From Polytrichum commune (Eukaryota; Streptophyta; Polytrichopsida; Polytrichales; Polytrichaceae): a DNA stretch of 64,000 bases. The stretch covers positions 35,345,081 to 35,409,080 of the forward strand of contig OX485809.1 of the NCBI GenBank assembly GCA_950295325.1. The letters run 5' to 3'. Shown here piece after piece: positions 12,451 to 63,429 of the stretch (its first letter is position 1; each line of letters starts with the position of its first letter). The translations under genes were made by a program, and so were the position numbers. The notes under the pieces were generated by a model. That model was not told the DNA's origin and did not search any database. It saw nothing but the letters and a program-made list of their open reading frames with translations.

Positions 12451-13565
12451 GGACCGGTTCACATGGGGTCCCAAGTCCCAAGTCCCACTTATGTAAGCAA
12501 GTCCCAACATGGAGGCAAAGTCCCAACTTTTGAGCCTTAGGATACCATTAAAATATGGTTAATTATCATTAAAGTCGGATCTTGATTATTTCGTACAAAA
12601 GCATTTGCAGGACTTGTGTTGCGAGTTGGATCTAGCTTTTTGCTTGACCTAATTCTAAACACAAGTCCCAATCCTCACCTCCAAATAATAGGCTTCCATG
12701 TCATACTTGGGACGTAGGACTCGGGACCATATGTGAGGTGGTAAGTCCCAACTTCCATGCTCTCAACGGCTAAGATTGCACGGATTGACATTAAATAACT
12801 TGGGACTTGGGACTTAGGACCCCGTGTGAAGTGGTAAGTCCCAACTTCCATGCTCTCAACGGCTGAGATTGCACAGATTGACATCAAGTGACTTGGGACT
12901 TAGGACTTAGGACCCCGTGTGAAGTGGTAAGTCCCAACTTCCATGCTCTCAACAATTGAGATTACACATATTGACATCAAGTAACTTGAGACTTAGGACT
13001 TGGAACCCCTTATGAAGTGGAAGTCCCAACCTACATGCTCTCAACGGCTGAGATTGCACGGATTGACATTAAATGACTTGGGACTTGGGACCCCGTGTGA
13101 AGTGGTAAGTCCCAACTTCCATGCTCTCAACAGTTGAGATTACACATATTGACATCAAGTAACTTGAGACTTAGGACTTGGAACCCCTTATGAAGTGGTA
13201 AGTCCCAACTTACATGCTCTCAACAGCTGAGATTGCACAAATTGACATCAAGTGACTTGGGACTTAGGACTTAGGACCCCGTGTGAAGTGGTAAGTCCCA
13301 ACTTCCATGCTCTCAACGGTTGAGATTACACATATTGACATCAAGTAACTTGGGACTTAGGACTTAGTACCCCGTGTGAAATGGTAAGTCCCAACTTCCA
13401 TGCTCTCAACGGCTGAGATTGCACAAATTGACATCAAGTAACTTGGGACTTAGGACATGGGACCCCGCGTGAAGTGGTAAATCCCAACTTCCATGCTCTC
13501 AACGGCCGAGATTGCATGGATTGACCTCAAGTGACTTGGGACTTGGGACCCATGTGAACCGGCCC
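12451..13565. mobile_element. PIF/Harbinger-type non-autonomous element
   Basis: The ends are terminal inverted repeats, GG(A/G)CCGGTTCACATGGG followed by TCCCAAGTCCCAAGTC, and the element is flanked by TAA at 12,448-12,450 and 13,566-13,568. A 3-bp TWA target duplication with GG-starting termini is the signature of PIF/Harbinger. The interior has no transposase; it is almost entirely a 93-bp tandem repeat. A short relative with one unit is at 31,869-32,214. Confidence 0.75.
12741..13545. repeat. 93-bp tandem repeat (9 units) inside Harbinger element
   Basis: The landmark GTAAGTCCCAACTTCCATGC starts at 12,741, 12,834, 12,927, about 13,019, 13,105, 13,198, 13,291, 13,384 and 13,477. Spacing is 93 bp except one unit with an 8-bp deletion. 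Each unit ends in (C)TTGGGACTTAGGACTT, the complement of the TCCCAAGTCC block at the element terminus, so the array seems to have grown by repeating subterminal sequence. Confidence 0.85.
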
Positions 13566-31868: not shown

Positions 31869-32214
31869 GGCTAATTCATATGTGGTCCCAAGTCCCAAGC
31901 CCCAATCATGTCAGCAAGTCCCAACTTTTGAGCCTCAAGAAATCATCAAAGTTAGATCATGATTTATTATGCAAAAATATCTCAGACTTGTGTTTCGAGT
32001 CAGGTCTAGTTTTTTGCTCAACCCAACCCACAACACAATTTCCAAGCCTCACCTCCAAAAAGTGTTGTCATGTAGACACCCATGTCATACTTGGGACTTA
32101 GGACTTGGGATCTCATGTGAATTGGTAAATCCCAACTTCCATTCTCTCGAAGCCCGAGATTGCACATATTGACCTCAAGTGAACTGGGACTTGGGACCTT
32201 GTGTGAACTGGCAC
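31869..32214. mobile_element. Short Harbinger-type relative with one 93-bp unit
   Basis: The left end (TTCATATGTGGTCCCAAGTC) and the inverted right end (CAGTTCACACAAGGTCCCAA on minus) match the termini of 12,451-13,565. The interior shares AAGTCCCAACTTTTGAGCC and a single unit of the 93-bp repeat (GGTAAATCCCAACTTCCAT). Flanking target duplications are not clear. It lies 43 bp before the CACTA element. Confidence 0.65.
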
Positions 32215-32257
32215 AATATAACTCCCTTTAGCACCGTCCTTGCACACAAGCTTGAAA

Positions 32258-32286
32258 CACTACAACAGATTGGGTATTTTGTGACT
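32258..32286 (+). repeat. CACTA left terminal inverted repeat
   Basis: 29 bp beginning CACTACAACAGATTGGGTAT and ending TTTGTGACT, a perfect inverse match to 47,535-47,563. The two sides diverge immediately after GTGACT. Confidence 0.95.
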
Positions 32287-32525
32287 AGGGAAATATGACT
32301 GGGGATGACTGGTGACTACATGCAATCACATTTTGCCAGGCCTCGACCTTTGTCGGGTACGAAATTCAAAAATATGACTCGCAGTCATATTTTTGTGTCG
32401 TATTTGGCAAATGTATTGTATACGGCGTATGGGAACGACGAGTGCCTTTATAGGGAACGACGGGGAACGTGTATGGTGGACGCCCAGTCATATGTGGCAG
32501 TCACATTCTGACTAGGACCATTTTT
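32287..32525. promoter_or_regulatory. CACTA left subterminal region with motif dyads
   Basis: ATGACT and AGTCAT words recur, including a perfect 13-bp-arm palindrome at 32,367-32,395 with a 3-base loop (arms end in ATATGACT / AGTCATAT). In characterised CACTA elements, repeated subterminal motifs are bound by the TNPA-type protein; binding here is inference. Confidence 0.6.
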
Positions 32526-32882
32526 TTCCTTCTTTTGGGCAGCCCTTGATAATTCAGGTTGCCCTAGACGGGCCTCTTGTGTTTTTGCCCCATGACTCAT
32601 TATCTAGTATTATGGTGTGGAGTATTTATTTAATAATGACAAATATTGGTCAAAATTAAGTATTTTGTGTGTTATAGTATGAACGGCAATGAGAATTGGG
32701 AATGGCCCATGTTTATTTATTGAATAATTAGTTGATTGATGTTTTAGGGAGTATAGGGGGAAAATTGGGGAGGAAATTTGATTTTTACTATTGCCAAGAG
32801 ACTAATTGAACATGTATATAATTGAACTTAAATATATACCCACCTAAGTTTCATTTATACAACTTCTTGCTCGGACGGGAAG

Positions 32883-35800
32883 TCAATCACCGTCCGAGTC
32901 GCAGTGCTCGGAGTCATCTACCGATGCGTCATCCAGTCCCTCTAGACATTCTAATGCCTTGGCAACCACTCCTGGCCCTACTTCCACTGCATCGCCCAAT
33001 ATGGGTGTTTTTGGTACGATATCGTCCTGAAACGCCGTCACTTGTAATCCGGGAAAATCAGAAGTCCTACCTAGTGCTATGCATTGTACTTCATCCGTTC
33101 TTTGTTGTTTGGAGAATACCCGAACCCCTCTCGGTTCCTTGCGCAAAACAACTTCCCATCCACACTTCGCTACGTCAGGTGCAAAAAAAACTTGTTCGAT
33201 GTGGAGAGGAAATGCAAATGATTGTGCTGAGAACGGAATCAATGTGTCAAAGTTTACAATGGTGAAACCATAGTCGTCGCGCTTCATTGTCGCCCCATCT
33301 CCCTTAATGTTTGCAACGACCCAATTGCAATAGAGGACCACCACCTCGAAGAATCCATAGTCCACAGATAGGATTTCCTCCACCCAACCCACATACTCCA
33401 ACTCCGCTGCCTTTGGATTTGTGTCCTTCAGGCCCGAGCGACATAATTGTCGAAATGTTGCGGCCACCCCAGAGTCCATCGTTGTCAATTGTGCCTGTGC
33501 GCTTCGGACACGGATGTGGTTTCCAAACGCATACATGGATCGATACGATTTCGCTGCATCCGATGGAGGTAACATCAAGGCCCTAACGTCTTCTTGTACC
33601 TCCTCCGTGCCTTCTTCTATGGCGCGCATCACTGCTTTTGGAAACCAAATGTGGAAATCCTCGTCGCGCAGCTCCGCTGGGTACATTACCCGCGCCTTCC
33701 GCTTCTTGTGCCTGTATTCGTGCCGCTCACATTCCCGCCGTGACATGTCATCCTTGTGTTTCCTGCATTTTGGATACAGCCCAACACATCATTACCCGTG
33801 ACTTGCTAAAATCACTAAGGGCAGTCATATTTGCATACAACAGTAGTCGTACTGTGTCGCGATAACTACAACGAAATGCATATTTTACGACTACATTTTG
33901 TGATTGTACTCAGTCACAAATCCCAAAATATGACTGACTGCAGTCATATTTTTTGGTCACAAAAGATGTGTTTTGTTGTAGTTCGTATGGTTTGCACTGT
34001 TGTTCTAAGAGAGGTGGTGCATTTAAGGTTCTTCCACTAAAACGTGAACTCACCTCCTCCACTCCTCTAGTGGTGCCGCATTGTTCACCACGAACTCATG
34101 TATCCATTGTCGAAGGTCGGATGGGAGATGACGCGCCAGCCCGCCACCTTCGAGGATCTCATCATACATTGATGGGTCTTCTTTGTCATCCCACACTCTT
34201 CGAGTGGTGACTGTATATTCTTGCATATACTCCGTACAGAATCCCAATGCCTCTACTATGGCGTAGCCTTCAGCCATGCAACCCTCTAGTCGAGTATGGT
34301 TTCGGACATACCCTTTTAGAGTCTTCAGGTACCTCTCGATAGGGTACATCCAATGTGTATGTACGGGTCCATAAATTTCCACTTCCTCCACGAGATGCAG
34401 GACCAAATGGCTCATGATGTCAAAAAATGATGGCGGGAATTCTTTTTCCAACATGCATAGTGCTATGGCCGCTTCACACCTCATCTCCTGTATTGTTGCA
34501 GGATCAATGGACTTAGCACACACCCTCTTGAATACACGGCTCAACATTATTATTGATGTCCGCACTTCCTTTTTCATTGTGCAGCGCATACATAGTGCCA
34601 ACACTTCCTGCATGAGGACATGGTAGTCATGGGATTTCAAACCTTTAATTTGCCCATCCACGTTTACGCGCTTCTTCAACTGTCCCACATAGTGAGTGGG
34701 GGTTCGCAGTGCATGCACTTGCTCCACAAAGACTTCACGCTCTTCTTTCGTCATAACGTACGAGGATCGAGGTAGAATCACGCTACCGGGTTTTGTTCCT
34801 GCTACGGGCCAAAGATGCGGGCGTATACCCGCCTCCTTCATGTCCAGACGAACTCCAAGTGTATCCTTCTCTCCAAATATGGTTTTCATTACATTCTCAG
34901 CGATGTTTTTCTCACAGTGCATAACATCCAACGTGTGTCGAATTAGAAGATCCTGCACAATGACTCGACCCAGTGAGAAATTTTCCGGAGCGAATCACAA
35001 TATCACTACGTGCAATCATGTCACTGTACATGACTATGTCCACTCACATAATACTCATAAACAATATTACTATATGCAATCATGTGACTATGTCCACTCC
35101 CTTAATTCTCATAATAAGAAACACGTACTTTCATGTATGGAAGGTCATATAGACATGTCCTCCTCTTCACTCCATGTTCGTGTACGGGGTCTGTCGTCTG
35201 CCCAGTTTGGTTTCTGTAGTATTTTTTTGTCCACTCTTCTCGCTCGTTCGCATATCGCAATTGCTCTCGACCACTCATCCTTCTTGGCGGTGGTCTCATC
35301 TCCGGCTACCCATCAAAATTGGACCTCTGTCGTCTCCATTGGTGGGTCATTGGCAGTTGTCGTCTATGCCCAAGGTAAACATTTTTTTTCAGCGCTTTGG
35401 AACGCCGTGTTGCCACGTTGGGGCCACACACGGGGCAAGCCCTATGTCCTTTTGTTACTTGCCCCGAAATCAAACCGTACGCCGGGAAGTCATTCACCGT
35501 CCACAAAAGCATGCCATGTAGCTTAAATGTTTTCTCTTTGGGGTTTCCTTGCGATCCGTCCAAGCAGTCGATCCCTTTCCAAAGCTCTTGGAGCTTCTCA
35601 ATCAACGGTGTCATATACACATCCACGTTCCTGTCCCTTACACTCTCTTTTCCTGGTATGATTAGCACAAGCATCATGAAGAAGTTTTTGGTCATTAACC
35701 AAGGGGGGAGATTGTAGTTTAGCATGACTACGGGCCAAGTAGAGTGGCTGAGACTTTGGTTCCTAAATGGATTTACGCCATCCAGTGCAAGGCCAAGCCT

Positions 35801-36685
35801 AACGTTCCGTTCATCTTCCGCAAACCACGGCCACCTATTATTTACGTGGTCCCAAGCCTTCGAGTCCACCACAGACCTCATCACCTTGTCCTTACTTTTC
35901 CCACCTACATGCCATTTCATTAGGCCCGCGATCCGTGTGCAGCTGTACATCCTTCGCAAACGAGGAATCAAAGGAAAATGTCTCAAAACTTTGACTGGAA
36001 TTGTACTGGAGTTCTCTACAAAGCGCGATTTGTGGCATGTTGGGCACTCCGTTGCATTCTCCAATTCTTTCCGAAACAAACAACATCCATCTCTACACGC
36101 ATGTATTGAGTTGTAGGACAACCCCAACTTCATCAACAAGCCTTTCGCCTCGTTAAATGATTTCGGTAGTGTGTTGTCCTTGGGTAAAATTGTCTCCTTC
36201 AACAACTTCAACAACTCATCCACAAAGTTGTTTGGTACAGCGAATGTGGTGCAACACAATAGTATCAAGAGTGTCGATGTGAGACGGTTCGAGGGGCTTC
36301 CCTCATACAGTGGAGTTCCAGCTTCGCATAAGAGCTTCTGGTGGTCTACCCCACTGGGGTCCTCATTGTTCATCATACTCCCTCTTGTTTCCATGGGGTC
36401 ATTCGTTTCTTCCCTTTCCCCCTCGCTAGCTTCACTGTCCTTCGTTATGAAACCATCCTCCCCTTCATCGTCTTCAACCAATGCATCCCCGAGTCCCTCA
36501 TGTATGGTGGCTTCGGTTTCGTGTCCATCAAATTTGAGGCCATCGTACTTGCCAAAGCACTCTGCCACCATACGTAGAACCTCAACTTCTCCATCTTGTC
36601 CATCGTTTGTGTTATGGTATGTCTGGCTTCTTTGCCCAGTCCGGGGTGCATGGGAGAACAAGTCAATCAGGTTGTACTCGTCCTG
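32883..36685 (-). CDS. TNP2-type CACTA transposase body
   Basis: DDE-type transposase of plant CACTA elements, which cuts at the terminal repeats. Three exons fit: 36,685-35,129 (acceptor CTGCAG, donor GTACGT), 34,952-34,054 (acceptor TGCAG, donor GTGAGT) and 33,762-32,883 (acceptor TGCAG, stop TGA). Family blocks appear in order: LYEGSPSNRL, FVDELLKLLKETILP, ATECPTCHKSR, VKVLRHFPLIPRL, NVRLGLALDGVNPF, LLWTVNDFPAYG with ACPVCG in exon 1; LDVMHCEKNIAENV, then a DUF4218-like part (MRCEAAIALCMLEKEFPPSF, YPIERYLKTLKGYVRN) in exon 2; a DUF4216-like C-terminus (LDYGF-type VDYGFFEVVVLYCNWV, HIEQVFFAPD) in exon 3. One in-frame TAG at 35,306-35,308 interrupts exon 1 after FDG; reading resumes in the same frame with RPPPRRMSGREQL. 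The first coding exon is probably the TAD exon at 37,912-38,109. Confidence 0.9.
33763..34053 (-). other. TNP2 intron with palindromic motif
   Basis: This 291-bp intron carries several AGTCAT/ATGACT words and a near-perfect inverted repeat at about 33,932-33,955 (AAAATATGACT, then AGTCATATTTT), nearly identical to the palindrome in the left subterminal region. Confidence 0.6.
34953..35128 (-). other. TNP2 intron with duplicated motif block
   Basis: This 176-bp intron holds two diverged copies of a block with CAATAT(C/T)ACTA, GCAATCATGT, TGACTATGTCCACTC and CTCATAA, at about 34,999 and 35,062. They contain the ATGACT-type word found across the element. Confidence 0.6.
35306..35308 (-). other. 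In-frame TAG in transposase exon
   Basis: Both sides of the stop align with TNP2 in the same frame (SNFDG before, PEMRPPPRRMSG after), so this is a single nonsense change and not a frameshift. CAG to TAG, a C-to-T transition typical of deaminated methylcytosine, would explain it; that is inference. A sequencing error cannot be excluded. Confidence 0.75.
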
Positions 36686-37210
36686 CAGATAGTGATAAAT
36701 TTGTGCACACGTTATATATTTTCGCTTTGGCAGAAACATACGACAAGGACTCATAACAATGATGATCATAGAACACGGATTGTATATAACGTGCACATAT
36801 TATATACAAATGTATAAAAACGATAAGGAGCAATCACAAGTAACATTGTATCACATGGATGAGTCATAAATTTGTGACTTCTGTGTTATATGATTATATC
36901 ATAAAATGAACAATGTATCTAACGTGGGGCAATCATGAAACGCCGAATATAACATGAACGTGTAACATGCGTGGGGGGGGGATGTTCATCGATTATGAAG
37001 ATAAGAGTGTGTTAGGTAAAAGAAATTGAATGCACCATACAAATACAAGCATTGGATGTAAAAAAATGGTCATGTTCCACATACACATGTATACCGTGGT
37101 CTGGACATGTATACAAAATTTTGTCAAAACAAAATATGACTTCGTGTAGTCATGTTAGTGAACACATGGCACACTTTAATCATTCCGAATGTGGACTAAT
37201 GGGTGTCAGC

Positions 37211-37819
37211 CTACAATGCGGTGTGCGGGTTCAAAGAGTAATGTGCATACAACTCTTCTCCGACCAAAATGTCCTTTGTGGCCATGGTGATTACATACCC
37301 CCATTCCTGTTTGTTCCAGGGTTTTGGCAACATGCGAAATTCCCACACCACAATTCCTATTTCTTTGCGTCCTATGGAACTATTTATGAAGCCTGCGACA
37401 TTCCCTTTCATTACATCTCCATCGATGTACAAGTCTGGCTCAACTTGCATCGCATATGACTTCACTCGAGGTTGTGCATTCTTCAAAGCACTGTATTCTC
37501 CCTTGGTGTATTGTGGTCCTACGAATGGAAGCAGTTCCTCTCCCTCTTTGGCGGGTTGAAGTGCAAAGAGACCCCAACCCATAAATGGGAAGTTGGACAC
37601 CCTTACTTCCCATTCTCTATTCCAGTATGAAAACTTTATAAGTTTTGGGATGGGCCCGTCACACCACTGTCCGTCATACACGTTTGACCCCCATGTCTGC
37701 AAGGCTCGTATTCTTGCAGACGCAGTGTTTGGCATTGACTGTGAAGGCATTTCGTGTCCTCCTATAAACTTTCTCAGGGATGTCTTGCAAGCAGCTTTTA
37801 CAATGGGTCTCCATCGGGC
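37211..37819 (-). CDS. SET-domain exon carried by the CACTA element
   Basis: SET domains transfer methyl groups from S-adenosylmethionine to lysines, often on histones. This exon (202 codons plus TAG) begins at a strong acceptor (pyrimidine-rich, TTTTGTAG) 92 bp after the TAD exon donor, and joins it in phase 0. Counting from the internal Met at 37,750, the SET hallmarks are GWGLFA (58-63, the GxG cofactor motif), GNVAGFINSS (116-125, in place of the usual N(A/H)RFxNHSC) and GEELYAHY (164-171, in place of GEELTYDY), with the last Tyr kept. The usual His and Cys of NHSC are Ser and Ile here, and there is no post-SET Cys cluster, so activity and substrate are uncertain. The frame has no stops or indels while the neighbouring transposase has a TAG. 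It could instead be a non-catalytic captured domain. Confidence 0.85.
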   Translation of the reverse strand, partial: ARWRPIVKAACKTSLRKFIGGHEMPSQSMPNTASARIRALQTWGSNVYDGQWCDGPIPKLIKFSYWNREWEVRVSNFPFMGWGLFALQPAKEGEELLPFVGPQYTKGEYSALKNAQPRVKSYAMQVEPDLYIDGDVMKGNVAGFINSSIGRKEIGIVVWEFRMLPKPWNKQEWGYVITMATKDILVGEELYAHYSLNPHTAL

Positions 37820-37911
37820 CTACAAAATTCATGTACACAAAGATGAAAACTCGCTCAAAGCAGGACCACCCGCTGACGCTCATTCACAAGTCGTTTCATG
37901 GAATGACTCAC

Positions 37912-38109
37912 CAAGATAGAGGCTGTAAACACGGGGTCCCTTTTTTTGCTGCGAAGATGCTTTCGAATTGTGGCTCGATCGAGGACTTTCCCTCCTGCAC
38001 ACTCCATGCAGGGGCATGGGTACTTGGATAGCCGCATTGCATCTGCTTGGACCTCTTCTTCTTGCCATAACTGTAGATGCTTCAAGCTTTCGACCTCCCC
38101 TCCTGCCAT
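37912..38109 (-). CDS. Transposase-associated (TAD-like) N-terminal exon
   Basis: The 66-codon frame from ATG 38,109 to donor CTTG|GTGAGT carries a CPCMEC cluster followed by LDRATIRKHLRSK. This resembles the transposase-associated domain at the N-terminus of plant TNP2 proteins, a Cys/His-rich module thought to bind DNA. It ends in phase 0. Two downstream acceptors are in the matching phase: 37,819 (SET exon, 92-bp intron) and 36,685 (transposase exon, 1.2-kb intron). One promoter could therefore produce a TAD-SET protein or a TAD-transposase. The start Met is the first in frame. Confidence 0.7.
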
Positions 38110-38245
38110 CCTGTGGTGTGCACGGCATACGCGCTAGGTCAATTTGTGATATGGGAATACCTTACAAGGAGGAAGTGCTCGTATGCACGCAGTCACGTAT
38201 CTATGTGGATTAATACGATCTAAGGGAAGTCAAATAACCCAAGGC

Positions 38246-38379
38246 AGTCATATAACATAGGGGAGTCATATAAGACATGACAGTCATATAACACAGGGGA
38301 GTCATATAAGACATGGCAGTCATAGAACACACGGGGGTCATATAACACATGCCAGTCATATAAGACATGACAGTCATCA
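38246..38379. promoter_or_regulatory. 18-bp tandem array upstream of SET/TNP2
   Basis: The word AGTCATA (one copy GGTCATA, the last AGTCATC) begins at 38,246, 38,264, 38,282, 38,300, 38,318, 38,336, 38,354 and 38,372, exactly 18 bp each time. Unit tails alternate between TAACACAGGGG-like and TAAGACATGAC-like. The array ends about 140 bp upstream of the TAD start codon, where a promoter would lie, so it is a plausible operator-like control site for the element's own DNA-binding protein. Confidence 0.85.
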
Positions 38380-38399
38380 GCTCATGACTAGAAGGCGTG

Positions 38400-41340
38400 A
38401 AAATACTCTAACCTAAGCCGTGAAGCAACTTGAAGGAATATTATGAAACATCATGAACCCAATCCACTTTGTATGAATCTTCTTTTACAACATTCATGAA
38501 CATGTTTGATAAATCGTGGCATATGATTGTATGATTTAAATAAAAGTATCCTAGTTGAGTTGGTTGAGAAGACTCGACTGGTCATAAACTAAGTAGCTTA
38601 TTCTCTTTGAGTTGGATAAGGGTTGTTTTCAATATGAGATCAAGGGCTGCGAGGAAAGAAAATTAGGATGTCTCATTGTCCAAAAACCACGACCATCGGA
38701 TATTCACGTCACTTTTTAAAGCCTTGATCATGGGACATGTTGTAAAGCATACTTAGGGAAATGGCTATGGGCACAATTTGGATTTGCTAATCATTTTGCA
38801 CTAATTGTGTATTTCACATCCTATGAGAAGAGGGTTTAAAGAGAGTTGTGTTTATTCAAGACCCACTTACCTTAGTGACCACTAATGTGACCTTATGGAC
38901 CATTGTGCACAATATGTATCTTCTTGGTCATTGAGTGTACACAATTATATATGGGAGCTCACACATAGTGAGCTAAAGTTTCCTATTTTCAAAGCCGAGC
39001 AAACACCAAGCATTACTTCATTTGATTTAATTATAGTTATGAGAAATGCATAACATTTGTTGATTTCTTAACTAAATACGCGGGTTCTCCCAATTGTGTT
39101 CATTGTTCAATGTAGAGTAGTTCTTTGAATTTTGAAGACGTATTCCAATCTTTTCTAAACATATGTCTTTATGATATTTTCTTTTTGATGATCCTCACCG
39201 AACCAATTATCAATCATATCTAGGGGTCCGATTAAAGAAGGGAGCCACTTAAGCCCATCTACCTTACATACTTAGAAAAGGTGGTACCAAGGGACCATTT
39301 CAACATCAACATTTCTTTTCGCTTCTAAATGAAAACTCGTCCTAGAAGTGCAAAGCAGACTCAATGAACACGGACCTGAAAGATGGGTTTCATTTGTTAA
39401 CAAAACACTTGAATATTAAGAAGGTACCAAATACAATCTCAAAGGGTGAATAGGTATTATATTAAGCAATAATTGACCACTATTATGTCCGTATAATGTC
39501 AAGTCATCCAATGTGGATGAAGGGGATTTAGTTTTAAAAAGGTCCCCGTTAAGGTTGAGGGTCGATTTATTCCAACTAGACTCCATAAGATTAATTTAGG
39601 GACTTTGATGTGTAATTTGATGTCAATCACAAGTTATACTACAATTCACTACGTTTCCTCCTTCATAATGGATGAGTTTACATAGACACCACGAATCCCT
39701 CGTCAAGTTCATGCCTTATAAAGTAAATTAGGGAGAAGAGCTAGAATCCCCTTAGAAAAAATGAATATTTGACCTACTGGATAATTCTTCATTTGATAGA
39801 GATAAATTTATATTGGTATAAAAGATCACATGGATAAGTGTGGACCTATGATATATACCGTAAATATATCGTAATCGATTCCAGGGGAGTCATATATATA
39901 CCCCGGTTATAAGTAAGTGTCATGAAGCCCATACTTTTTTTGTAAAAGTAATTTCGAATGTTGAGAATGTAAAAGTAATTTCAAATGTTGAGAATGTAAA
40001 AGTAAAGAGAATGTTGGGCTTTAATTTGGTTGATGGATGAACTCATCCATCCACGACAATATTTGATGACTTTTTCATAGCCCAATAATTGTTACTATAA
40101 AAAAATGTAAAATTTCAACGTTTTACGTGCAAATTAAAGTTGTTGATCTATTTTAGGCCCAACTCTATTTTTATAATTTATATCTCTCTCTCCCTCCCTC
40201 CCTCCCTGTCCCTGCCTCGCCCTCCTCGTCCCCTCCCCCACCCGCGCTCCCTCGGCCGCACTCCCTCACTCGTGCCTCCTACCCTCCCCCGCCCTCCATC
40301 CCTCGCTCTCCTCCTCCCTCATCTGTTACAACTTTGACGATTCAGATTCACTTTATAGCAGATTCAGGTGAGAGGCAGATTCAGGCTCAAAGACATGGTT
40401 TAGGGATCGCGAAATTTGATGTGGTTTAGGGTGGCAGACTCTTTGGTTTTCGGTGGCAGACTTGAAGGATTCGGCACCTGCCTCGATACATTTGGCAGAT
40501 TCAGGTGAGGTGGTGGGTGAAAGGGTTTTGTGAGAGTGTTGGGTGAGGTGGTGGGTGGTGGGTGCCGAGTGAGAGTGCATGCATAGTTTCGGTGTTGAGT
40601 GTTGTGCCGGGTGGGAGTGCTGGTGGGTTTCAGGAAACAGGGGGATTTCGGGAAACAGGTGGGTGATGGGTTTTTTTGAGTTTACATAGACACACCAGAT
40701 TCGGTGTCGGAGCTGCTGGGTGGTGGGTGCAGCTTCCTCCACCCCCCGACTTCGGTGTTGGGTGCACCTCGGCACCTCATTTGAATTCTTTGGTGCAGGT
40801 AACGTGGCAGCAGGGTTTTCGGAGGCAACTCTCTCTCCTAAACCCTTTTCGGGCATCAGTCCCTCTCTCCACCACTTCCACTCACCCTCCAAGGTTGTGC
40901 ACTCTCCCATCTCCAAGGAGAGTAATTTTAGTTTAAATATTTTATAATACTTCAAAAATTTCAAAACTTGTACTTTGAAAGACGACATCTAAATTGGGAA
41001 ATGATGAACCCTAATTCGGACACTAATTCGGGTCTCAATGTATTATTCTACATGTCACGAATGAAAGTTATTCTAATCCGGTCACTTATCTTAGTCAAAC
41101 ACCTAAATATCATGCTAAAACCCCGCACACACAATCGAATACCCGTGGAGAAAGTTGAGCTCACCTATATTCGCAACTCCCTTGGCATTTGTTGTAGAGG
41201 AGCTGGTTGTTCAATCCCTTATCCGCTAACCTGTAGCATCCACAAAAAATCGATGAGGACTGGTAGGGAATACAAAACAAACATAAAAAATGTATACAAC
41301 CTGTTTGTATTCTAGTGAACACTAATGTGGATTATGGTTT
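38400..41340. other. CACTA centre: older repeats and divergent promoter zone
   Basis: Between the two divergent units. Contains R1-related fragments at 38,745-38,880 and 39,050-39,260, a 27-bp tandem repeat (GTAAAAGTAATTT(C)GAATGTTG) at about 39,942-40,010, a pyrimidine-only tract at 40,181-40,325, and a diffuse repeat of GGTGGCAGA/GCAGATTCAGGT words at 40,360-40,560. AGTCAT motifs are absent from most of it, which suggests that part of it inserted later. No convincing exon, though an open minus frame lies at 40,353-40,988. Confidence 0.5.
40181..40325 (+). promoter_or_regulatory. Pyrimidine-rich tract in CACTA centre
   Basis: About 145 bases of almost only C and T, starting as (CT)n and (CCCT)n, upstream of the TNP1-like gene. 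CT-rich leaders are common near plant transcription starts, so it may belong to that promoter. It could equally be a simple repeat. Confidence 0.4.
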
Positions 41341-41345
41341 TGCAG

Positions 41346-44300
41346 AATCATGGAGGAAGAAATTCCGGAGTATGAGAGGGTGCGGAAGAAAAACATCGAG
41401 GCCAACAACCAGAAGCTGAGGGAACTCGGTCTGACACCGATTGGGACCTCTCAAGAGGCCTGAGGACCCCGGGTATGTAACCCCAAACCCTAATACAACG
41501 GACCTGCTACCGCTAGGGTTGCTTATGAAGTTTGAAACTTTTATGAATCTTTGTAGTCATAAACTGTATACAACTTGCTGAAGACATGACTGTTTGCAGT
41601 CATAGTTCATAGTATTATGACTCCCTGTAGTCATACTTCAGAATATTATGACTCCCTGTAGTCATACTTTAAGGTCTGTATGACACAGTCCAGTCACATT
41701 TTTGTGAGTGTGAGTCTTCCCAGTCCTAAAAATATTGTAACTTCTTCGAACATCCATGTTGTTGTGCATCATATGTGGCTTCTATTGGTTGTCTATGATT
41801 GTGCATTTATGATCATGTGTATGAACAATGTTTTTGTTTGACATCACATAATGAATGAATAATTCCATACTACCCAACAGTCCAGAGTTACCAAATTTGA
41901 AAGGGAATTGAAACCATAATGCATAGGCTAAATATTTCGGGTGTCATATTGAGGAACAATGTAGTGAGGGCTAACTAAGCTGCCCACATGCATGATTGGT
42001 TGGTGCCCGTGATGATAATGAAAGTTTGAATCATTGGAACTCAATTATTACTAGCTAGAGCACGTGTATGTGTTTGTTACATATTCCTTTCGTAAGATGA
42101 ATTCACAAAGGTTCAAACTCAATTTTATGTGTTGACAATGTGTATGTGTTGTGTATGTGTATGTGTAGGTGTATGTGTTGACAATGTGTATGTGTTGTCA
42201 ACTCTACAATAGGTTCTAACAATTACAATGGAATCTTGAACTGAGTTCCAGTAATAGACATTCAATTTCAATTTTTATTTTCAACCATCCTCATTACATG
42301 TTGTGAACAATTTCATGATTATGACTCCTCCCATTCATACTAATTTTCACCCACATGACTCATTTGAGTCATGTTTCAGCATTGGCATGTGTTGGAGTCA
42401 CAATTTTGTGAGATGTAATGTCCGTCTAATAACCCCCGCTCGTACTGAATAGTGTGGTTCCCGCGACTTCCACCAAAAATGCCGAAATGAACAATGTACT
42501 AGTCAATTTGATAACAAAAATAGCTAATCTGCCTGATAGCATGCAAGTGGAAGTATTTCGCACAATTGCTAGTTTCCCGGCAATTTCATTGCCGGTTTTG
42601 GAGAGAGTGGGGAATGAGGTTGCGCGTGTTTTTGAGAGCAACCGTGGCGTGCCTGTGGGAGAGCCGGGCCCATCTCTAGAGCAGGGTGGTGGCTGGGGTG
42701 TGACCACTCGAGCGAAGGGAAAAATACAACTTCTTGAAACAGACCTCGATGATGACGAGGACGAAGAGGACGAAGATGAGACTTCTGAGGACGAGCGGCC
42801 CAAACCAAGGAGGCGGAAGGTAAAAACATACATCTCCGTAGTTTCTTGCATTTGCTTCCGCATTCAGTGGTTCGCGTTACATGACTATAGGTAATCATAT
42901 GACTTTGTCCAGTCATATTATGTAACTTAGTACAGTCATGTAGGGTGACTCCATGCAGTCATATAATGTATTGTACGTCTGGGTGTGTAGGGAAATGCAA
43001 ATGAACCCAAGTCATGGCCGTTGCAATCTAGTGGAAAGAAGGGCAAGGCGGTCGATGAGGAGGATATCCTGCTGTCCCAAGACATGCAAGATACTCTCCG
43101 GGCTTGCGAAATGGACGCCGACGACGCATCGGCGGACAGCGAGGAGAAAGAGGATGGCGCAGGGCATCGTAACGAGCTCCTTGACGAGTTGGAGCTCCGG
43201 GAAGTCAGCATTTTGCGGCGTATGGCTCAAAAAGGAGCCGATCCGACACAACTTCGCGAGAAGGTGCGTTGCCTTGGCCGGACGGCAGAGGTTCAAGGCG
43301 ACAACGGAAACGCGCGGCATCGACAATCGAAGTTGAAGAACCTTAGGCGGTCCTTGAAGAAGAGTGACGAGTTGCACACTTCCAGTGGTGGTCAGCGTTT
43401 GTGGGTCAACGTCGACGAGGCCGGGTGCCCGACAGGGATACACAGGCCTGACTGGCTGACGCAACTACGCGGGTACTATCGCGACCTTGACTGGAGTGTC
43501 GACAACTTCAGGGCACACCCACAGCCCTTGTTGTTGGCGATTAAAGACAAGATGGCCGCACAGTTCGAGTACCGTGGTGGACTCGGAGACGTGCCTGAAG
43601 CTGTTTTTTTTCAGATTTTGCGCCAGCAGATGCGGACTCGCAGGTCGAATATGAAGAAACTCATAGAGAGTTGTGGCCCGCTCCCACCGTATGTGAAGAA
43701 GGCGCACGTCGACAACTTCAAGCGCTTAATTGCCCGGACGGACAAAATCGTGGAAGCTACGCGCATGAAAGCCGCATGGCAGACCGTGCAGACCATGTCG
43801 TATTCTGGAAGGTCCGAGGGGGAGGTGCGCTCTAGACTGGTAAGTGATTTTGTGTGCAAGTCATTCAAACATAAATAGGTGACAACCTGCAGTCATACAA
43901 TTCAGTCATATAATGAATGATATCACTTTACATAGTCATACCGTGAGTCATATGGCCATAGATAATCACATGTGACCTGAATATGACTTCACCTAGTCAT
44001 ATTCAGACACATATGACTTCACCTAGTCATATTGTGAGTCATATGACTTCACCTAGTCATATGTTGAGTAATATGACTTCAGATAGTCATATTCTGAGTC
44101 ATATGACTTTACCTAGTCATATTTAGTATGTTTACGTATTTTTCATGGATCCACAGTTGCTCCTTTCATGGGCCGCAGATTTAGAGCGGCCCCCGACGCA
44201 GCTAGAGGTGGAGACTAAGCTAGCGACACCCGGGAAATCAGGACGGGGCCGGTCATCGTCGTCCAGAGGGCCACTCCCAAATGCAAGAGCGGGAGATAGA

Positions 44301-46761
44301 GCCCTCTTTGTTACGCGGACCGAGCTGCACGACTTCCAGGATAGCATGAAGGGGGAGATGGAAGATATAAAGGCTATGGTGAAGCAGCTGCTACTGGAGG
44401 TGCAGAAGCGAACGACGGCCACGGACATGGAACCGCCAGCCACGGCGGAAGCGGGAGTCGACGTGATCCAAGTAACCGCCGAAAAGGTTACGTCTGTATA
44501 CCCTCTAGTATTCGCTTCGAGTACATGTATGGAACACCTTTGCTTCAGCAATGTTGTATGTCATGCATGAAGATCGTTCACTAATACACGCCTCATGTGG
44601 ATCATTAGAACATGCAGGCAACTGGGAAGTTGGCGGAATCCGGGTATACTAGGTCGACTGCGGCATCGGAGCCCCTGCGTAACACCCTAGCAGATATGGG
44701 TTGCCAACCCGTCATTCAAAAGAAGAAACCCATAGCCAAGAAGAGGAAGGGCGAAGCGGAGAAGCTATTGGCGGAACGCGATGCACGGCCTACCCAACGT
44801 GCAATGGCTCGACAGAAAGAGGTTGGCATTTATGTCATATGCACATTATACTTGTCAGATAGTTATATTTACGTGCAAGCTTTATATCTTTAATTTGGCC
44901 TCAACATTGGACAGTCATATGACTATGTCACATAATATGACTCTAGGCAGTCATATAATATGACTCTAGGCAGTCATGTTATACGACTATAGGCGGTCAT
45001 ACTATATGACTCACTGCAGTCATAAAACATGAGAAGTAGCAGTCATATAACATGACATGAGGTTATCACAAGCAGTCATGTATGACAGGGCCGAGTCATA
45101 ATCTAACGCTAGAGTGTTACTGGGTCGTGGCCTTCCAGGTTATGACGGTTGGAGCGAGTCAGGATCAACCCGTGGACTTGCAGAAGGACGAGGACCATGA
45201 GGAGCCTGCGACGAAGAGGCCGGCAAAACGGGCACATAAAGGAGGCAGTCCACAGAAGAAGAAGAAGAAGGCTGGCAATGCTCCGAAGATCCAGCTGTTA
45301 GCTGCGAAGGTCCCCTCGGTAAGAGTGTCGGACTCCGGGCGTAGGAAAATTATAGTGTTGAATGTTGTAGGACTTCTTTGCGATATCAGACCTCTGCACG
45401 ATAAGAGATAGTGGGGCCCGGATCTAGTGATCCACCACGCAAAGGACCTGAATGTAAAAATCAAAAAAAGAACCGATTGCGACAAGTTTTTGTCGATGTT
45501 GTTCTCTAATTTTGATGTCGGGATATGGTCCCCCGTAGAGCAGAATGTACTAGAGGTTGTAGGTGCATTTTTTGCATTGGGAACGACAGCTCAATGGAGC
45601 TTTCTGTGGGGGAGGACTTACCCCCTCCAGAACCCAATAAGAGACCTCCGCAATCTATTTGATATGATTCCGGACCCCACGCACGGCTCAATACGATGTC
45701 TCCAAATCGATTGGGATACAACGGTGACGGCGCGTTCCCCCCCCCCCCTCAAATATCCTAAACTTTCCGCTTTGGGATCCCCTAAACCCCAACGATGACT
45801 TCCTCCGCAGAATCTACGGGCCATTCGAAGCATTGGCCCGCAAGCAATCCGATATTTAATATTGCTTGGCGTATCTGACCAAGGAGGTCCATCTAGCGTC
45901 GGTACCTGTGAACATGGTAGGTTCATCGACACAGGTAAGCTGCTTTTGGATATTTTTTGTTTCTATTTGGTTCTCACTCCAATCGCAAACAAAGAAAATG
46001 CTGATAACATATGTCCGCATAGGTATGTCACTCCACGAAGTAATATGAGGACCCTAGGTGAATATGCAACTTATTGTGGTCATACAATATGACTCTGTCC
46101 AGTTATATGACTATGGTCAATTATAGGAAATATGACTATGTTCATTCATATGACTATGGCTAGTCATGGGTTGTATGACTATGTCCATTCATATGACTAT
46201 GATTAGTTATAGGTCGTAATTATATTAGTCATTGTTGTCATATCTGATGACTACGGTGCGTTATATGAGTATGTCATGTCATATTATGCAATCATAGCCT
46301 AGTGTGAGGTCATATTTTGAGTATTGAAGCTCCAGTAACTCCACACGGATTGTTTTGATTGTTGATAATTACGTTTTCTGCTGCAGACACAAGTAGAAGA
46401 GGACACTCTCGTATTGTCGGAGACGGCTAATGCGTTGGTGGAGGACGCACCCTTGCCGTTGGCCACGGGGTCCAATGTCAAATTGTTTGACTTGGACGAG
46501 GAGAACAAGGCCAAGGCGAACGTAGTGGCGCAAGGCATCATCGTGAGCCTTGCAGGAGGTTCACTCCACGGGCGCCTCATTGAGGAGGGCAACGTATCAG
46601 TGTCCTCAATCGAGCCGGGAGCAGAGTCCGTGTTGTTGTACGAGGGCAACAACGATGACGATCCTTCGATGCTGCGTCTGGGCGATGCACTGAAGTCCAT
46701 CACCAAGTGGCTTGTGGAAGCATTGAAGGCTATCCCGCCGAAACCTCAACAAACCACTTAG
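41346..46761 (+). CDS. TNP1-like CACTA accessory gene, partly damaged
   Basis: Exons found: 41,346-41,472 (ATG 41,350), 42,453-42,819, 42,991-43,839, 44,157-44,486, 44,618-44,821, 45,139-45,318, a damaged one from 45,371, and 46,387-46,761. Exons from 42,991 to 45,318 all join in phase 0. The first has the YERVRKKNIEANNQKLRELG motif usual at the start of such proteins; 42,991-43,839 resembles the Transposase_24 region, with an acidic run before it; 45,139 has a lysine run like a nuclear signal; the last resembles the DUF8039-type C-terminal domain (VVAQGIIVSLAGG, SMLRLGDALKSITKW). TNPA-type proteins bind subterminal repeats and help excision. Damage: TGA at 41,461 just before the donor GTATGT, and frameshifts plus a stop in 45,371-45,900. 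So this copy probably makes no full-length protein. Confidence 0.75.
41614..41671. repeat. 31-bp motif duplication in TNP1 intron 1
   Basis: ATTATGACTCCCTGTAGTCA begins at 41,614 and again at 41,645, identical over 20 bases, each a dyad of ATGACT and AGTCAT with a 6-base spacer. Confidence 0.8.
43981..44130. repeat. 30-bp motif array in TNP1 intron (5 units)
   Basis: ATATGACTTCACCTAGTCAT begins at 43,981, 44,011, 44,041, 44,071 and 44,101, exactly 30 bp apart, with small changes in the last two. Each unit is an inverted pair ATATGACT / AGTCATAT with a 6-base spacer. The array fills the end of the intron before the 44,157 exon. Confidence 0.9.
44935..45072. repeat. 23-bp motif array in TNP1 intron (6 units)
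   Basis: Units begin at 44,935, 44,958, 44,981, 45,004, 45,027 and 45,050, exactly 23 bp apart. The best copies read ATATGACTCTAGGCAGTCAT, an inverted ATGACT / AGTCAT pair; the last two are weaker (ACATGA at the same phase). Confidence 0.85.
45371..45900 (+). pseudogene. Damaged exon of the TNP1-like gene
   Basis: An acceptor (GTTGTAG) at 45,370 opens a frame (DFFAISDLCTI) that meets TAG at 45,425. A shifted frame then reads well (PDLVIHHAKDLNVKI to IRCLQIDWDTTV) up to a C run at about 45,737-45,748, beyond which the sense shifts again (PLNPNDDFLRRIYGPFEALA) to a TAA near 45,857. Two frameshifts and a stop indicate a broken exon, or sequencing error at the homopolymer. The domain is not recognised. 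Confidence 0.6.
46088..46216. repeat. 43-bp (18+25) motif array in TNP1 intron
   Basis: TATGACT begins at 46,088/46,106, 46,131/46,149 and 46,174/46,192: pairs 18 bp apart that repeat every 43 bp, three times. Units carry TATGACTATG(G/T)(T/C)CA and CATTCATATG words. The 18-bp spacing is the same as in the array upstream of SET/TNP2. Confidence 0.85.
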
Positions 46762-47094
46762 ATTTCGGTAGTTTACGCATTTAGGGATCATGTAGGAAAG
46801 ATGAACACATTTGGATATGCTTGGAGACATGGACTACATAATATCGTTCAAGTTATTGAAATTTATCTGCTCAATTTGTGTGCTCAATTTCTTATTTGGC
46901 TCAGTCATGTAGCACATGACTTGAATGTGTCGTCATTGCTTGGAATGTGCCACAAAATATGACTGATATTCAGAATTGCAAGTAATACGAATCTAACTCA
47001 ATACAGTTACAACAACGCACAAAGAACTACACAATGTGACTCTCCATCTACGCGAATATCACTCCATCATGTCACATTGTGCATCACATGTTAC

Positions 47095-47534
47095 TAAGAA
47101 TATGACTACAGAACGTCATATAATAATGTCATCCCCGCAGGAAATGTGACCAACGCCCCAAAAAATATAACTACAAGCAGTCACATTCCACGTGGCCTGC
47201 TACGTCGGCAAAATTATGACACATGCAATTCATATTACACGTCAGCAGAAAACATGACTACATGGAATCACATGCCACGTCGGTTTGGTATTTTTCTGCC
47301 CGGGCAGGTCAAAAATGGCACATACTCCAAGGCTAGTCAAGGTATGCCCCACGTGCAGTGGGGGTCGTAGAATCTGTCCTTTTATACGCCTCCACAACCG
47401 TATATATTCATATGACTCATGTCCGAAGTGACTCGTCGGTAATGACTAGACCCAGTCACTACGCGCGTCATCCGCATCCGGAGCCTCGTCAGTCATATTT
47501 TGGGATTTTATGACTTAAGGCAGTCATAAATTAC
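47095..47534. promoter_or_regulatory. CACTA right subterminal region
   Basis: Dense (A)TGACT/AGTCA(C/T) words continue to the right terminal repeat, including CAGTCATATTTTGGGATTTT followed by ATGACTTAAGGCAGTCATA at about 47,489-47,527. This mirrors the left subterminal region. Confidence 0.6.
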
Positions 47535-47563
47535 AGTCACAAAATACCCAATCTGTTGTAGTG
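47535..47563 (-). repeat. CACTA right terminal inverted repeat
   Basis: Perfect inverse of 32,258-32,286, ending TACCCAATCTGTTGTAGTG, then the AAA duplication at 47,564-47,566. Confidence 0.95.
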
Positions 47564-47689
47564 AAATAACTTAACAAGAAAGACGCAAGAAGACAATTTT
47601 TTTAAGGCAAATCTTACTAACCAAATTTCCACCTCAGCTTTTTAGAGAAGCATATTTAGTAGCAAATTATTACAATAAATTATTAATTT

Positions 47690-60917: not shown

Positions 60918-63279
60918 TTACAAGACTGTTTGTAAATAGGCTGTCCTTGTAGCCATGGACAGGATAAAGCGAGTTTTACTGAAGACGTTGAGACCAAGAA
61001 TGATGTCACAACTGATTGCCTGAAGTGCCGGCAGGTTACCTACTGCAAACAGTATTTTCTCAAACAGCAGCGTTGTTGATGACCCACTCCTTTCGTGTGT
61101 GTGCATTGTAACGTCAATGAAAGCCTTCGCAAAAGCCATTTGTTGACCACCAACACCAACCCCCGAAATTCCTAGCTTTTCCTGTGCAACACAAAACATA
61201 AAAACGAATCGATTAGTTTTTGGAAGCCTTGACCTTCATCTATTCCCTTCTAAATCTTTTCTTTGCATGCAGGAACAGACACTGCCAATTGTTCCACCTA
61301 CAAATGTGCTTCAACATGTTATGGCTAGTAACATTAATGACCTTATTCACATATACATCATTGGAGACAGGTATTTCAATTCTACAGCAATAAGTGTGAA
61401 TCTAGATAAAGCTTTACCGAGTTGATCAAACATAGTAATTGAGGTATCTCTGATTACTACTTGAGTTTTACACCTGTTACTAGTGTAAGAAGTATGTCTG
61501 TGCATACAGACACGATAGTTGAAGCTTTATCATTGAAGCTTTTACAATGCTGACCTTCTAGAAACAACTTCAAAAAATAATGTGTACGAAGTGTACTAAG
61601 TCAAGTAAGATTTTTAATTCAGGTCTGACCAGAGCTATGATGATACGCAAGATGAAAACCCTAGTAAACTATGGAGCAAGGGGTTTGTGTAAGACTGACG
61701 TACCAAGGTTGCACCTGCAGAATTTGCTACGCTCGGTGTTGTTACACTTAGAGAAGATCCCAAATCTATGATAGCCAATTGGCTCTTTCCTCTTCCCATC
61801 TCTACCTGTTGCATTATTGGTACTTTGCATCAGATGCCAATTTCTTCCTAATATGTAGGCAATTTTCACAACAAAACCTGCTTTCTAACTGAAAAGAGAG
61901 AACATATATATACATATACCAGATCAGAGTTGTATCTTACTTGGAGTCCTGGTAAGGAGTATTGAACAGGTGCCAGAGCAAGTTTTTGCAATCCTTGCAT
62001 GTCGCAATCTCCCCTATTAGCTGCACCTACTGTGTAAAAGGCGATCTGTTCCTTCAGGAAATGGAACTCAACATCATATTGGGATAAGATATTGAGGCCT
62101 ACAATACCTGCAACAGATGGAGGGAGCCCTGCACTGGCCAGGTCCATAACAATTCCCTGTGCAATCACAACATCATTTAAGTCACCACAGGTAACCAATA
62201 CTCTTAAGCTTGGCCCTTGACTCATCACAGTACTTAGAATGTGAAACAATCACACGTCTGGTGACATGCATAAATGTACACTAATTATAATAAATAGTAT
62301 GGGCAAATGTGTAGTATGGTCCGCGAATATACCAACACTGGTCACACAGGAAAATATTGTGCAAACCCAAGTTTCACTTGTCATGCAACCCTGCTATATA
62401 CCCACCTCTAGGTTGAATGTTCTTTCAAATGCAAACTACTTTCAACCCAATAGAAATAGTGTAACCTACAACATGGACATCTGATGGTCAACATTGTGGG
62501 CTGGTAGTGTGAACCCACAATGATATGCCCACTGTTTTTAGTGTGGAAATAAGCTCAATAGTGAAGTTATCCGCTAACTCAACATGACTTTTGGTTGGGA
62601 GTTGGTTAGTTTGCTTACAAGACCTTCCATATTGGTTCATTGAGGGTCAAACTCATATTTGGCATGTCAAGAGGTGCATAAAATGAGTTTGGCCCTCAGT
62701 GAACTGAGATGGTTTGCTCTTTATTCAATTTCAATCACTACCTCCAAGCATGCACCACAAGTAATATTGAAAAGGACTGAACACTAGTGTCGCCCACAGT
62801 AATATTTACCATAATTATTGTAGCAAATGAAGTTTGTGGGTGATAGAATAGTGTAGGAAGAAGTGTAGGAATGTGTGGTTTCACCTTGATGGGTTGGCAG
62901 AGATGACCAGCAATGGTGACAGCAGGGAGGGAGACTTCACGCATATCAAGCCCTCCATCCCCCATGCCACCAAGTCCTCGAGAGATTTGTCCTGAGCCAG
63001 GAATGATGCCCAGTTTGTTATAAGCTAAGGAGGGACTAACAATGGTGGTGCTGCTGCCAGTGTCAAGCAAGAAATCAAATGTGCCACGGTTGCCAAATGT
63101 CAGTGGGATGATGATGTACTCTTTCGGTGAAGACATTGTGCTTTTCAGTTTTCGCATTGGAATGCGAGCAATTGCCTTATCCTTATCTGGCTGCCTCATA
63201 GCGGGTTGCTTCCTATTCTTCACCGCAGCAAGTCGTTTTACAAGCTCGTCTTTCTCAAAGCAGTCTTTATATGAAACTC
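60918..63279 (-). CDS. Retropepsin-like aspartic protease, 3-prime three exons
   Basis: Probable single-lobe aspartic protease. Exons 63,279-62,885, 62,156-61,941 and 61,181-60,918 (TGA/TAA-type end) join in phase 0 with acceptors TTTTCCAG, TTGCACAG and TTGCACAG. Exon 1 opens with KDCFEKDELVKRL, a Cys-containing helix like those in SAP/MANF-type domains, then a basic linker, then FDFLLDTGSSTTIVSP, the DTG active site. Exon 2 contains GIVGLNILSQYDVEF, the hydrophobic-hydrophobic-Gly motif that closes a retropepsin lobe. Exon 3 contains a second similar block (IILGLNVFSKTRF) but no second DTG, so dimerisation would be needed for activity. The 131+72+87 codons lack the N-terminus; exon 1 begins mid-codon, so an upstream exon lies beyond 63,280 or outside the window. 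Intron 1 carries a 22-bp-arm hairpin. Confidence 0.8.
62635..62704. repeat. Hairpin in protease intron
   Basis: Arms 62,635-62,656 and 62,683-62,704 (GTTCA(T/C)TGAGGG(T/C)CAAACTC...) pair at 20 of 22 positions around a 26-base loop. The arm sequence also occurs within the Harbinger-type element near 16,865, together with a nearby ACAA(A/G)ACCTTCCA block, so this is a fragment of a dispersed fold-back family. Confidence 0.65.
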
Positions 63280-63429
63280 CTGGAAAACAATTTTGCAATG
63301 ACATGTGTCTGTGTTAACCCACAAGAATCCTGTAACATTGCAACCGCATTCCCTAACTGCTTCATCTCTGGGTAGTCAACACACACAAGCAAAAGTTGTA
63401 AATGGGCCTTAAGTGGTTACTTTTTCCAA

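Follow-up and report, generated by a model that had tools for sequence, protein, structure and literature searches.

A CACTA (EnSpm) element of 15,306 bp occupies positions 32258..47563 of the window, the 64,000-nucleotide stretch of Polytrichum commune DNA analyzed here, and carries its transposase and SET genes on the minus strand. Perfect 29-bp terminal inverted repeats (TIRs) bound the element at 32258..32286 (plus strand) and 47535..47563 (minus strand), and a 3-bp target site duplication (TSD), AAA, flanks it at 32255..32257 and 47564..47566. A preliminary description of this DNA had placed a SET-domain exon inside a bounded CACTA element, and the TIRs, which start with CACTA, the 3-bp TSD and a TNP2 transposase (PF02992) bear out both the class and the boundaries. 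Divergent plus-strand ORFs at 42433..46761, which matched no Pfam family over its cut-off, are probably a second gene of the element. Elsewhere in the window, a tandem array with ~93-bp spacing lies at 12705-13549, with related sequence at 31942-32212 directly to the left of the element, and a retroelement-type aspartyl protease ORF lies on the minus strand at 62738-63313 (Asp_protease_2, 29.8 bits).

Gene anatomy and the SET exon

The exons were predicted from splice consensus and homology, and on the minus strand they run in the order Transpos_assoc exon, SET exon and TNP2 exon. Exon 1 (37912..38109, minus strand) begins with an ATG, encodes a CxC..C..H Transpos_assoc-like domain and ends in phase 0 at the donor TTG/GTGAGT (the slash marks the splice site). 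The Pfam score of this exon for Transpos_assoc is below the cut-off (21.3 bits versus 27.7), and its match to U-box, which is above the cut-off (23.1 bits versus 21.4), is probably due to chance. An intron of 92 nt (37820..37911, minus strand) leads to the SET exon (37211..37819, minus strand), which encodes 202 residues followed by a TAG stop codon at 37211-37213. The next 528 nt are non-coding and separate the SET exon from the TNP2 exon (35129..36682, minus strand), which has the phase 0 acceptor CTGCAG/GAC and matches Transposase_21 with an E value of 6e-67 over its open part. In the window copy this exon is interrupted by an in-frame stop (35306..35308, minus strand), at a codon that is a sense codon in all 19 other copies covering it (1 of the 20 lacks coverage). 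Two further transposase exons follow on the same strand, one with a Pfam match to DUF4218 (PF13960; 34054..34952) and the last (32883..33762) with a DUF4216 score of 24.4 bits, below the cut-off of 30.6. In three other copies (L010, L011 and L014) the four exons checked are free of stops and frame changes.

The 202-codon ORF of the preliminary description was recovered at exactly the same coordinates, on the transposase strand and intact; the plus strand across 37211-37819 is interrupted by stops. The reading of the exon as a chance ORF was rejected. The motifs GWGLFA, GNVAGFINSS and GEELYAHY follow one another in that order along the exon. With a simple matrix of generic consensus values, the acceptor ATTTTGTAG/G reaches 7.5 bits; the motif order and the good acceptor reported earlier were both seen. 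The identification as SET was also upheld, since the translation matches Pfam SET (PF00856) at 36.8 bits against a cut-off of 22.4 (E 5.6e-9), with the alignment spanning residues 81-194 and profile positions 1-104 of 105 (nearly full length), and the SET profile matches all 13 copies that we aligned. A PDB search with the single window sequence gave weak matches (best NSD2, E 0.034), and the profile of the 13 rows gave ASH1L as the best match (E 1.1e-4), followed by MLL and EZH2. All 13 copies also weakly matched an NCBIfam family of Legionella SET effectors (29.1 bits for the window copy against a cut-off of 550), which, at the level of sequence, we read as distant SET kinship only. A Pfam Ntox17 match in one of the 13 was taken as chance, an AlphaFold2 model of the single window SET protein (mean pLDDT 34) was set aside, and a scan of viral contigs found no relatives of the exon.

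SET exons in other copies and their linkage to the transposase

A search of the host genome (407.8 Mb in 64 contigs) with the SET exon gave 150 scored matches among 203 candidates, some of which are two pieces of one exon. The rbcL gene on contig C8 of this genome (L107) has 9chz as its best PDB match, and its residues look bryophyte-like. The 101 longer rows form three diverged groups, A (at least 74% identity, 42 rows), B (30) and C (29), the identity limits being our own choice. We fetched 20 long group-A loci plus 20 short loci comprising 10 of group B, 8 of group C, L048 (at 74%) and L047, in which the SET end is missing. Exon 1 was found upstream of SET in all 40 of these loci and TNP2 downstream of SET in all 20 long loci, and the intron between exon 1 and SET is 88-117 nt in length, with the acceptor AG missing in L039. 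The terminal stop falls at the same place in all 40 loci whose SET end was read (the window copy included and L047 left out), although the codon differs by group: TAG in 22 of 22 group-A copies (counting the window copy and L048), TAA in 10 of 10 group-B copies and, among the eight of group C, TGA in seven and TAA in one. Internal stops were present in 5 of the 22 group-A exons and in none of the 10 group-B or 8 group-C exons; note that B and C copies without internal stops were mostly the ones chosen, so that their intactness reflects that choice.

The element ends give an independent count of the family. The 29-bp TIR, with at most two mismatches allowed, occurs 114 times in the genome versus none for a reversed-pattern control. 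Among 100 of the 114 TIR places listed, 33 neighboring pairs are in facing orientation no more than 60 kb apart, and a group-A SET lies between the two ends in 26 of them. The other seven consist of one pair of 17.6 kb and six of 5.8-7.5 kb (C2:17528421, C2:53543159, C3:45035958, C3:48730502, C4:12776107 and C6:39029013), the short ones being possible deletion derivatives. A TIR lies downstream in 17 of the 20 long group-A loci (16 of them exact), with flanks that differ among loci. When the other element end was examined in 10 copies, both ends were found in eight, and the 3-bp flanks, read by eye, agree in seven of the eight (the exception being L013).

The preliminary description had proposed a search for further CACTA copies, and these were abundant. 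For 70 of the best 150 of 643 TNP2 candidates, the same strand carries one of the 101 longer SET rows at an upstream distance of 0.9-2.6 kb. Of the 80 hits still unpaired, 3 have one of the 49 shorter rows upstream, giving 73 of 150. No SET-TNP2 pair in another strand or order was found among these best 150 of 643, and 31 of the 101 longer SET rows have no partner within the same set, perhaps only because the scored hits stop at 150. The remaining 77 of the best 150 TNP2 hits have no SET match nearby, indicating that CACTA elements can live without the SET exon. A TNP2 tree of 39 rows (19 SET-bearing hits and 20 of the 77 SET-less hits) requires four changes of the SET label, three of which are forced by well-supported branches. 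Shuffled labels required a mean of 13.4 changes, and none of 500 shuffles was as low as four. Two of the four changes are explained by L053, which keeps a 25-residue SET remnant, and L052, in which exon 1 and SET are both absent within the 2.5 kb fetched. Reading upstream of eight SET-less loci gave an exon 1 match in five and a SET remnant in one (L053). The tree is unrooted and fits one gain of SET with later loss as well as several exchanges.

Selection, origin and key residues

Ratios of nonsynonymous to synonymous change were computed as Nei-Gojobori group means. Between groups, dN/dS of the SET exon was 0.16 (B1-B2), 0.21 (B1-B3), 0.25 (C40-C) and 0.33 (A2-L048), with higher values for A1-L048 (0.37), A1-A2 (0.42) and B2-B3 (0.58); for most pairs of A versus B versus C the synonymous change is saturated. 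Within groups the values were 0.11 (B2), 0.27 (B1), 0.38 (A2), 0.73 (A1) and 0.92 (both B3 and C). The test of these ratios that had been suggested earlier thus came out in favor of selection, seven chosen SET pairs giving dN/dS of 0.15-0.36 (Fisher p 0.014 to 4e-18) with recent copies higher. In the A1-A2 comparison by exon, SET (0.43) is slightly less constrained than exon 1 (0.18) or two TNP2 exons (0.33 and 0.30). Judged from these sequence comparisons, the SET exon is under purifying selection in diverged CACTA families, and low ratios between lineages with higher ratios in recent copies are the pattern of a gene that works in the mobile lineage and decays after insertion.

CACTA elements are known to carry pieces of host genes (in the available text of PMC8616336), and a host SET exon could have been acquired once and carried as cargo in the manner of Pack-CACTA elements. 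The near-neutral ratios of the recent copies would agree with such a capture. However, three groups at 45-57% identity retain the frame, the splice sites, the stop position and low dN/dS. PF00856 gave 119 matches in the genome. For 90 of them a transposon SET match lies no more than 700 nt away; the other 29 lie elsewhere, and 16 of these 29 were compared with the transposon SET profile. The best of the 16 host pieces (L084) reached only 13.1 bits, and thus no close host source of the exon was seen among them. A Pack-CACTA cargo would be nearly identical to a host gene and free of selection, which is not what was found with 16 of the 29 host matches, and we regard passive capture as extremely improbable. 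The preliminary description had named two outcomes as fatal to its reading, a lack of SET matches and a one-off capture of a host gene. Neither was encountered: SET profiles match the exon, and other copies, in three groups and in most of the facing TIR pairs, carry it as a permanent component of the element, and no close host gene was seen among the 16 of 29. From the sequences we therefore adopt the reading that plant CACTA elements possess a real, conserved SET exon under selection. Note that transposon exons can raise the apparent number of SET genes in genomes of this kind, as the 90 of 119 SET-profile matches illustrate.

In the 13-row alignment GWGLF, Asn140, Asn146, Ser147, Ser148, Glu188, Glu189, Leu190 and Tyr194, the tyrosine of GEELxxxY, are invariant. 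In place of the NHSC-type SAM-binding motif the copies have NSSI, NSSA or NSST; the altered motif of the preliminary description (NSSI) is therefore no peculiarity of the window copy, the replacement being fixed across all three families. The aligned rows extend only 3-8 residues beyond Tyr194 and lack a post-SET or equivalent C-terminal part. Because of the replaced NHSC motif and this short C-terminus, the SET protein of CACTA elements may be non-enzymatic. At SET residue 156 the window copy also has a private Ile, against Asn in the other 12 rows.

A proposed role and its relation to known systems

The preliminary description had likened the exon to SETMAR, with SET and transposase in one protein. 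This part was not supported, as a conserved stop closes the SET exon ahead of the TNP2 exon. The position of the SET exon, between two transposase exons on the same strand, would allow it to enter the transposase polypeptide by stop readthrough or an unseen splice. Against such a fusion, the stop was present in each of the 40 loci read to the end of the exon (L047 excluded) with a codon that differs by family, and SET-less relatives join exon 1 straight to TNP2 in phase 0, so that we consider fusion very improbable. In these relatives, L049 and L050, the exon 1-TNP2 junction spans introns of 203 and 558 nt, indicating that the SET exon occupies the place of their plain first intron. Given that the SET exon has exon 1 on one side and the TNP2 exon on the other, and that the exon 1 donor and both the SET and TNP2 acceptors are phase 0 so that exon 1 can join either, the SET exon most likely serves as an alternative terminal exon yielding a separate protein of ~268 residues.

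The element contains the palindrome TGACT-N4-7-AGTCA 19 times, always in its non-coding parts and never in the minus-strand exons. Seventeen of the 19 lie within 41587..47511, the others being at 33931 and 37137. The motif is absent from the 48.7 kb of the window outside the element, and mononucleotide shuffles gave a mean of 0.07. The VANC anti-silencing proteins of Arabidopsis Vandal MULEs have tandem repeats as their targets (in the text available of PMC5735166) and, by analogy, the palindrome is a fair candidate for the binding site of an element protein.

We propose that exon 1 would have two alternative splice partners, both joined in phase 0: with the TNP2 exon it would give the transposase, and with the SET exon the ~268-residue protein. 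Exon 1, or a partner bound to the TGACT-n-AGTCA repeats, would recruit the SET domain to the DNA of the element. There the domain would alter a chromatin lysine by methylation or read it by binding, and this chromatin action would ease silencing of the element or tune its expression. The splice choice, the DNA targeting, the catalysis and the effect on silencing are what we infer. That the SET exon is a lasting, selected part of the CACTA gene giving a separate protein recruited to element chromatin seems to us about an even call, and a chromatin action of this protein is plausible. Conservation of the exon across families suggests that the elements use SET to influence how the host packages or silences them. 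The window copy itself, with its transposase broken by a stop and SET residue 156 changed, counts against the proposal.

The protein could instead be a selected accessory part that is not a methyltransferase but serves as a scaffold or reader, partnering for instance with the transposase or with chromatin complexes of the host. Such a role is favored by the NSS that replaces NHSC throughout the three families and by the near absence of sequence past the last Tyr, and purifying selection is compatible with any protein function. Yet GWG, Asn146, Glu188-Glu189-Leu190 and Tyr194 are kept without exception, some active SET or PR domains also deviate from NHSC, and small viral SET proteins do without pre- and post-SET. 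We take the scaffold or reader role to be quite possible, if short of an even chance. The stronger form of our proposal, in which terminal-exon choice in at least three families yields a lysine methyltransferase, for histones or another protein, that shares the transposase's N-terminal module and works on the palindromes of its own element to counter or set silencing, is put forward only tentatively and is, on balance, unlikely.

If the CACTA SET protein is chromatin-active, it would open a direct way to study the response of DNA transposons to host silencing, and it would be a naturally occurring fusion between the targeting module of a transposase and a chromatin domain. SETMAR (Metnase) of primates is a host gene in which SET is fused to one mariner transposase. 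It resembles the present case in associating a SET domain with a transposon gene, whereas here SET has its own stop, the transposase is of the CACTA (TNP2) type and the whole is a mobile multi-copy element. VANC is not known to carry a SET domain. The likeness to VANC lies in our working model, which would likewise pair an element-encoded protein with target motifs repeated in the non-coding parts of the element (PMC5735166, available text).

No report of a CACTA-encoded SET was found in the literature searched, to which Repbase and most subscription journals do not belong. Few transposons carry epigenetic enzymes, and the SET cases found named are the oomycete Harbinger and MuDR elements (PMC12730594, available text). 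Kojima 2025 (PMC12730594), citing Kojima and Jurka 2014, places SET genes in the HarbingerS and MuDR transposons of Phytophthora. These are likewise histone-methyltransferase-like genes carried by DNA transposons, although the transposases are of other superfamilies (the present element has TNP2 rather than a Harbinger transposase) and the hosts are oomycetes. The same source, in its available text, describes TET/JBP-carrying DNA transposons of fungi, EnSpm included. These share with the present element the CACTA type and an epigenetic-enzyme gene beside the transposase, but the enzyme is a DNA dioxygenase, not SET, and the hosts are fungi (PMC12730594). To these systems the moss element adds a standing SET exon of a plant CACTA, which most TIR-bounded copies of a single family contain and which is, by the ratios given above, selected in diverged families.
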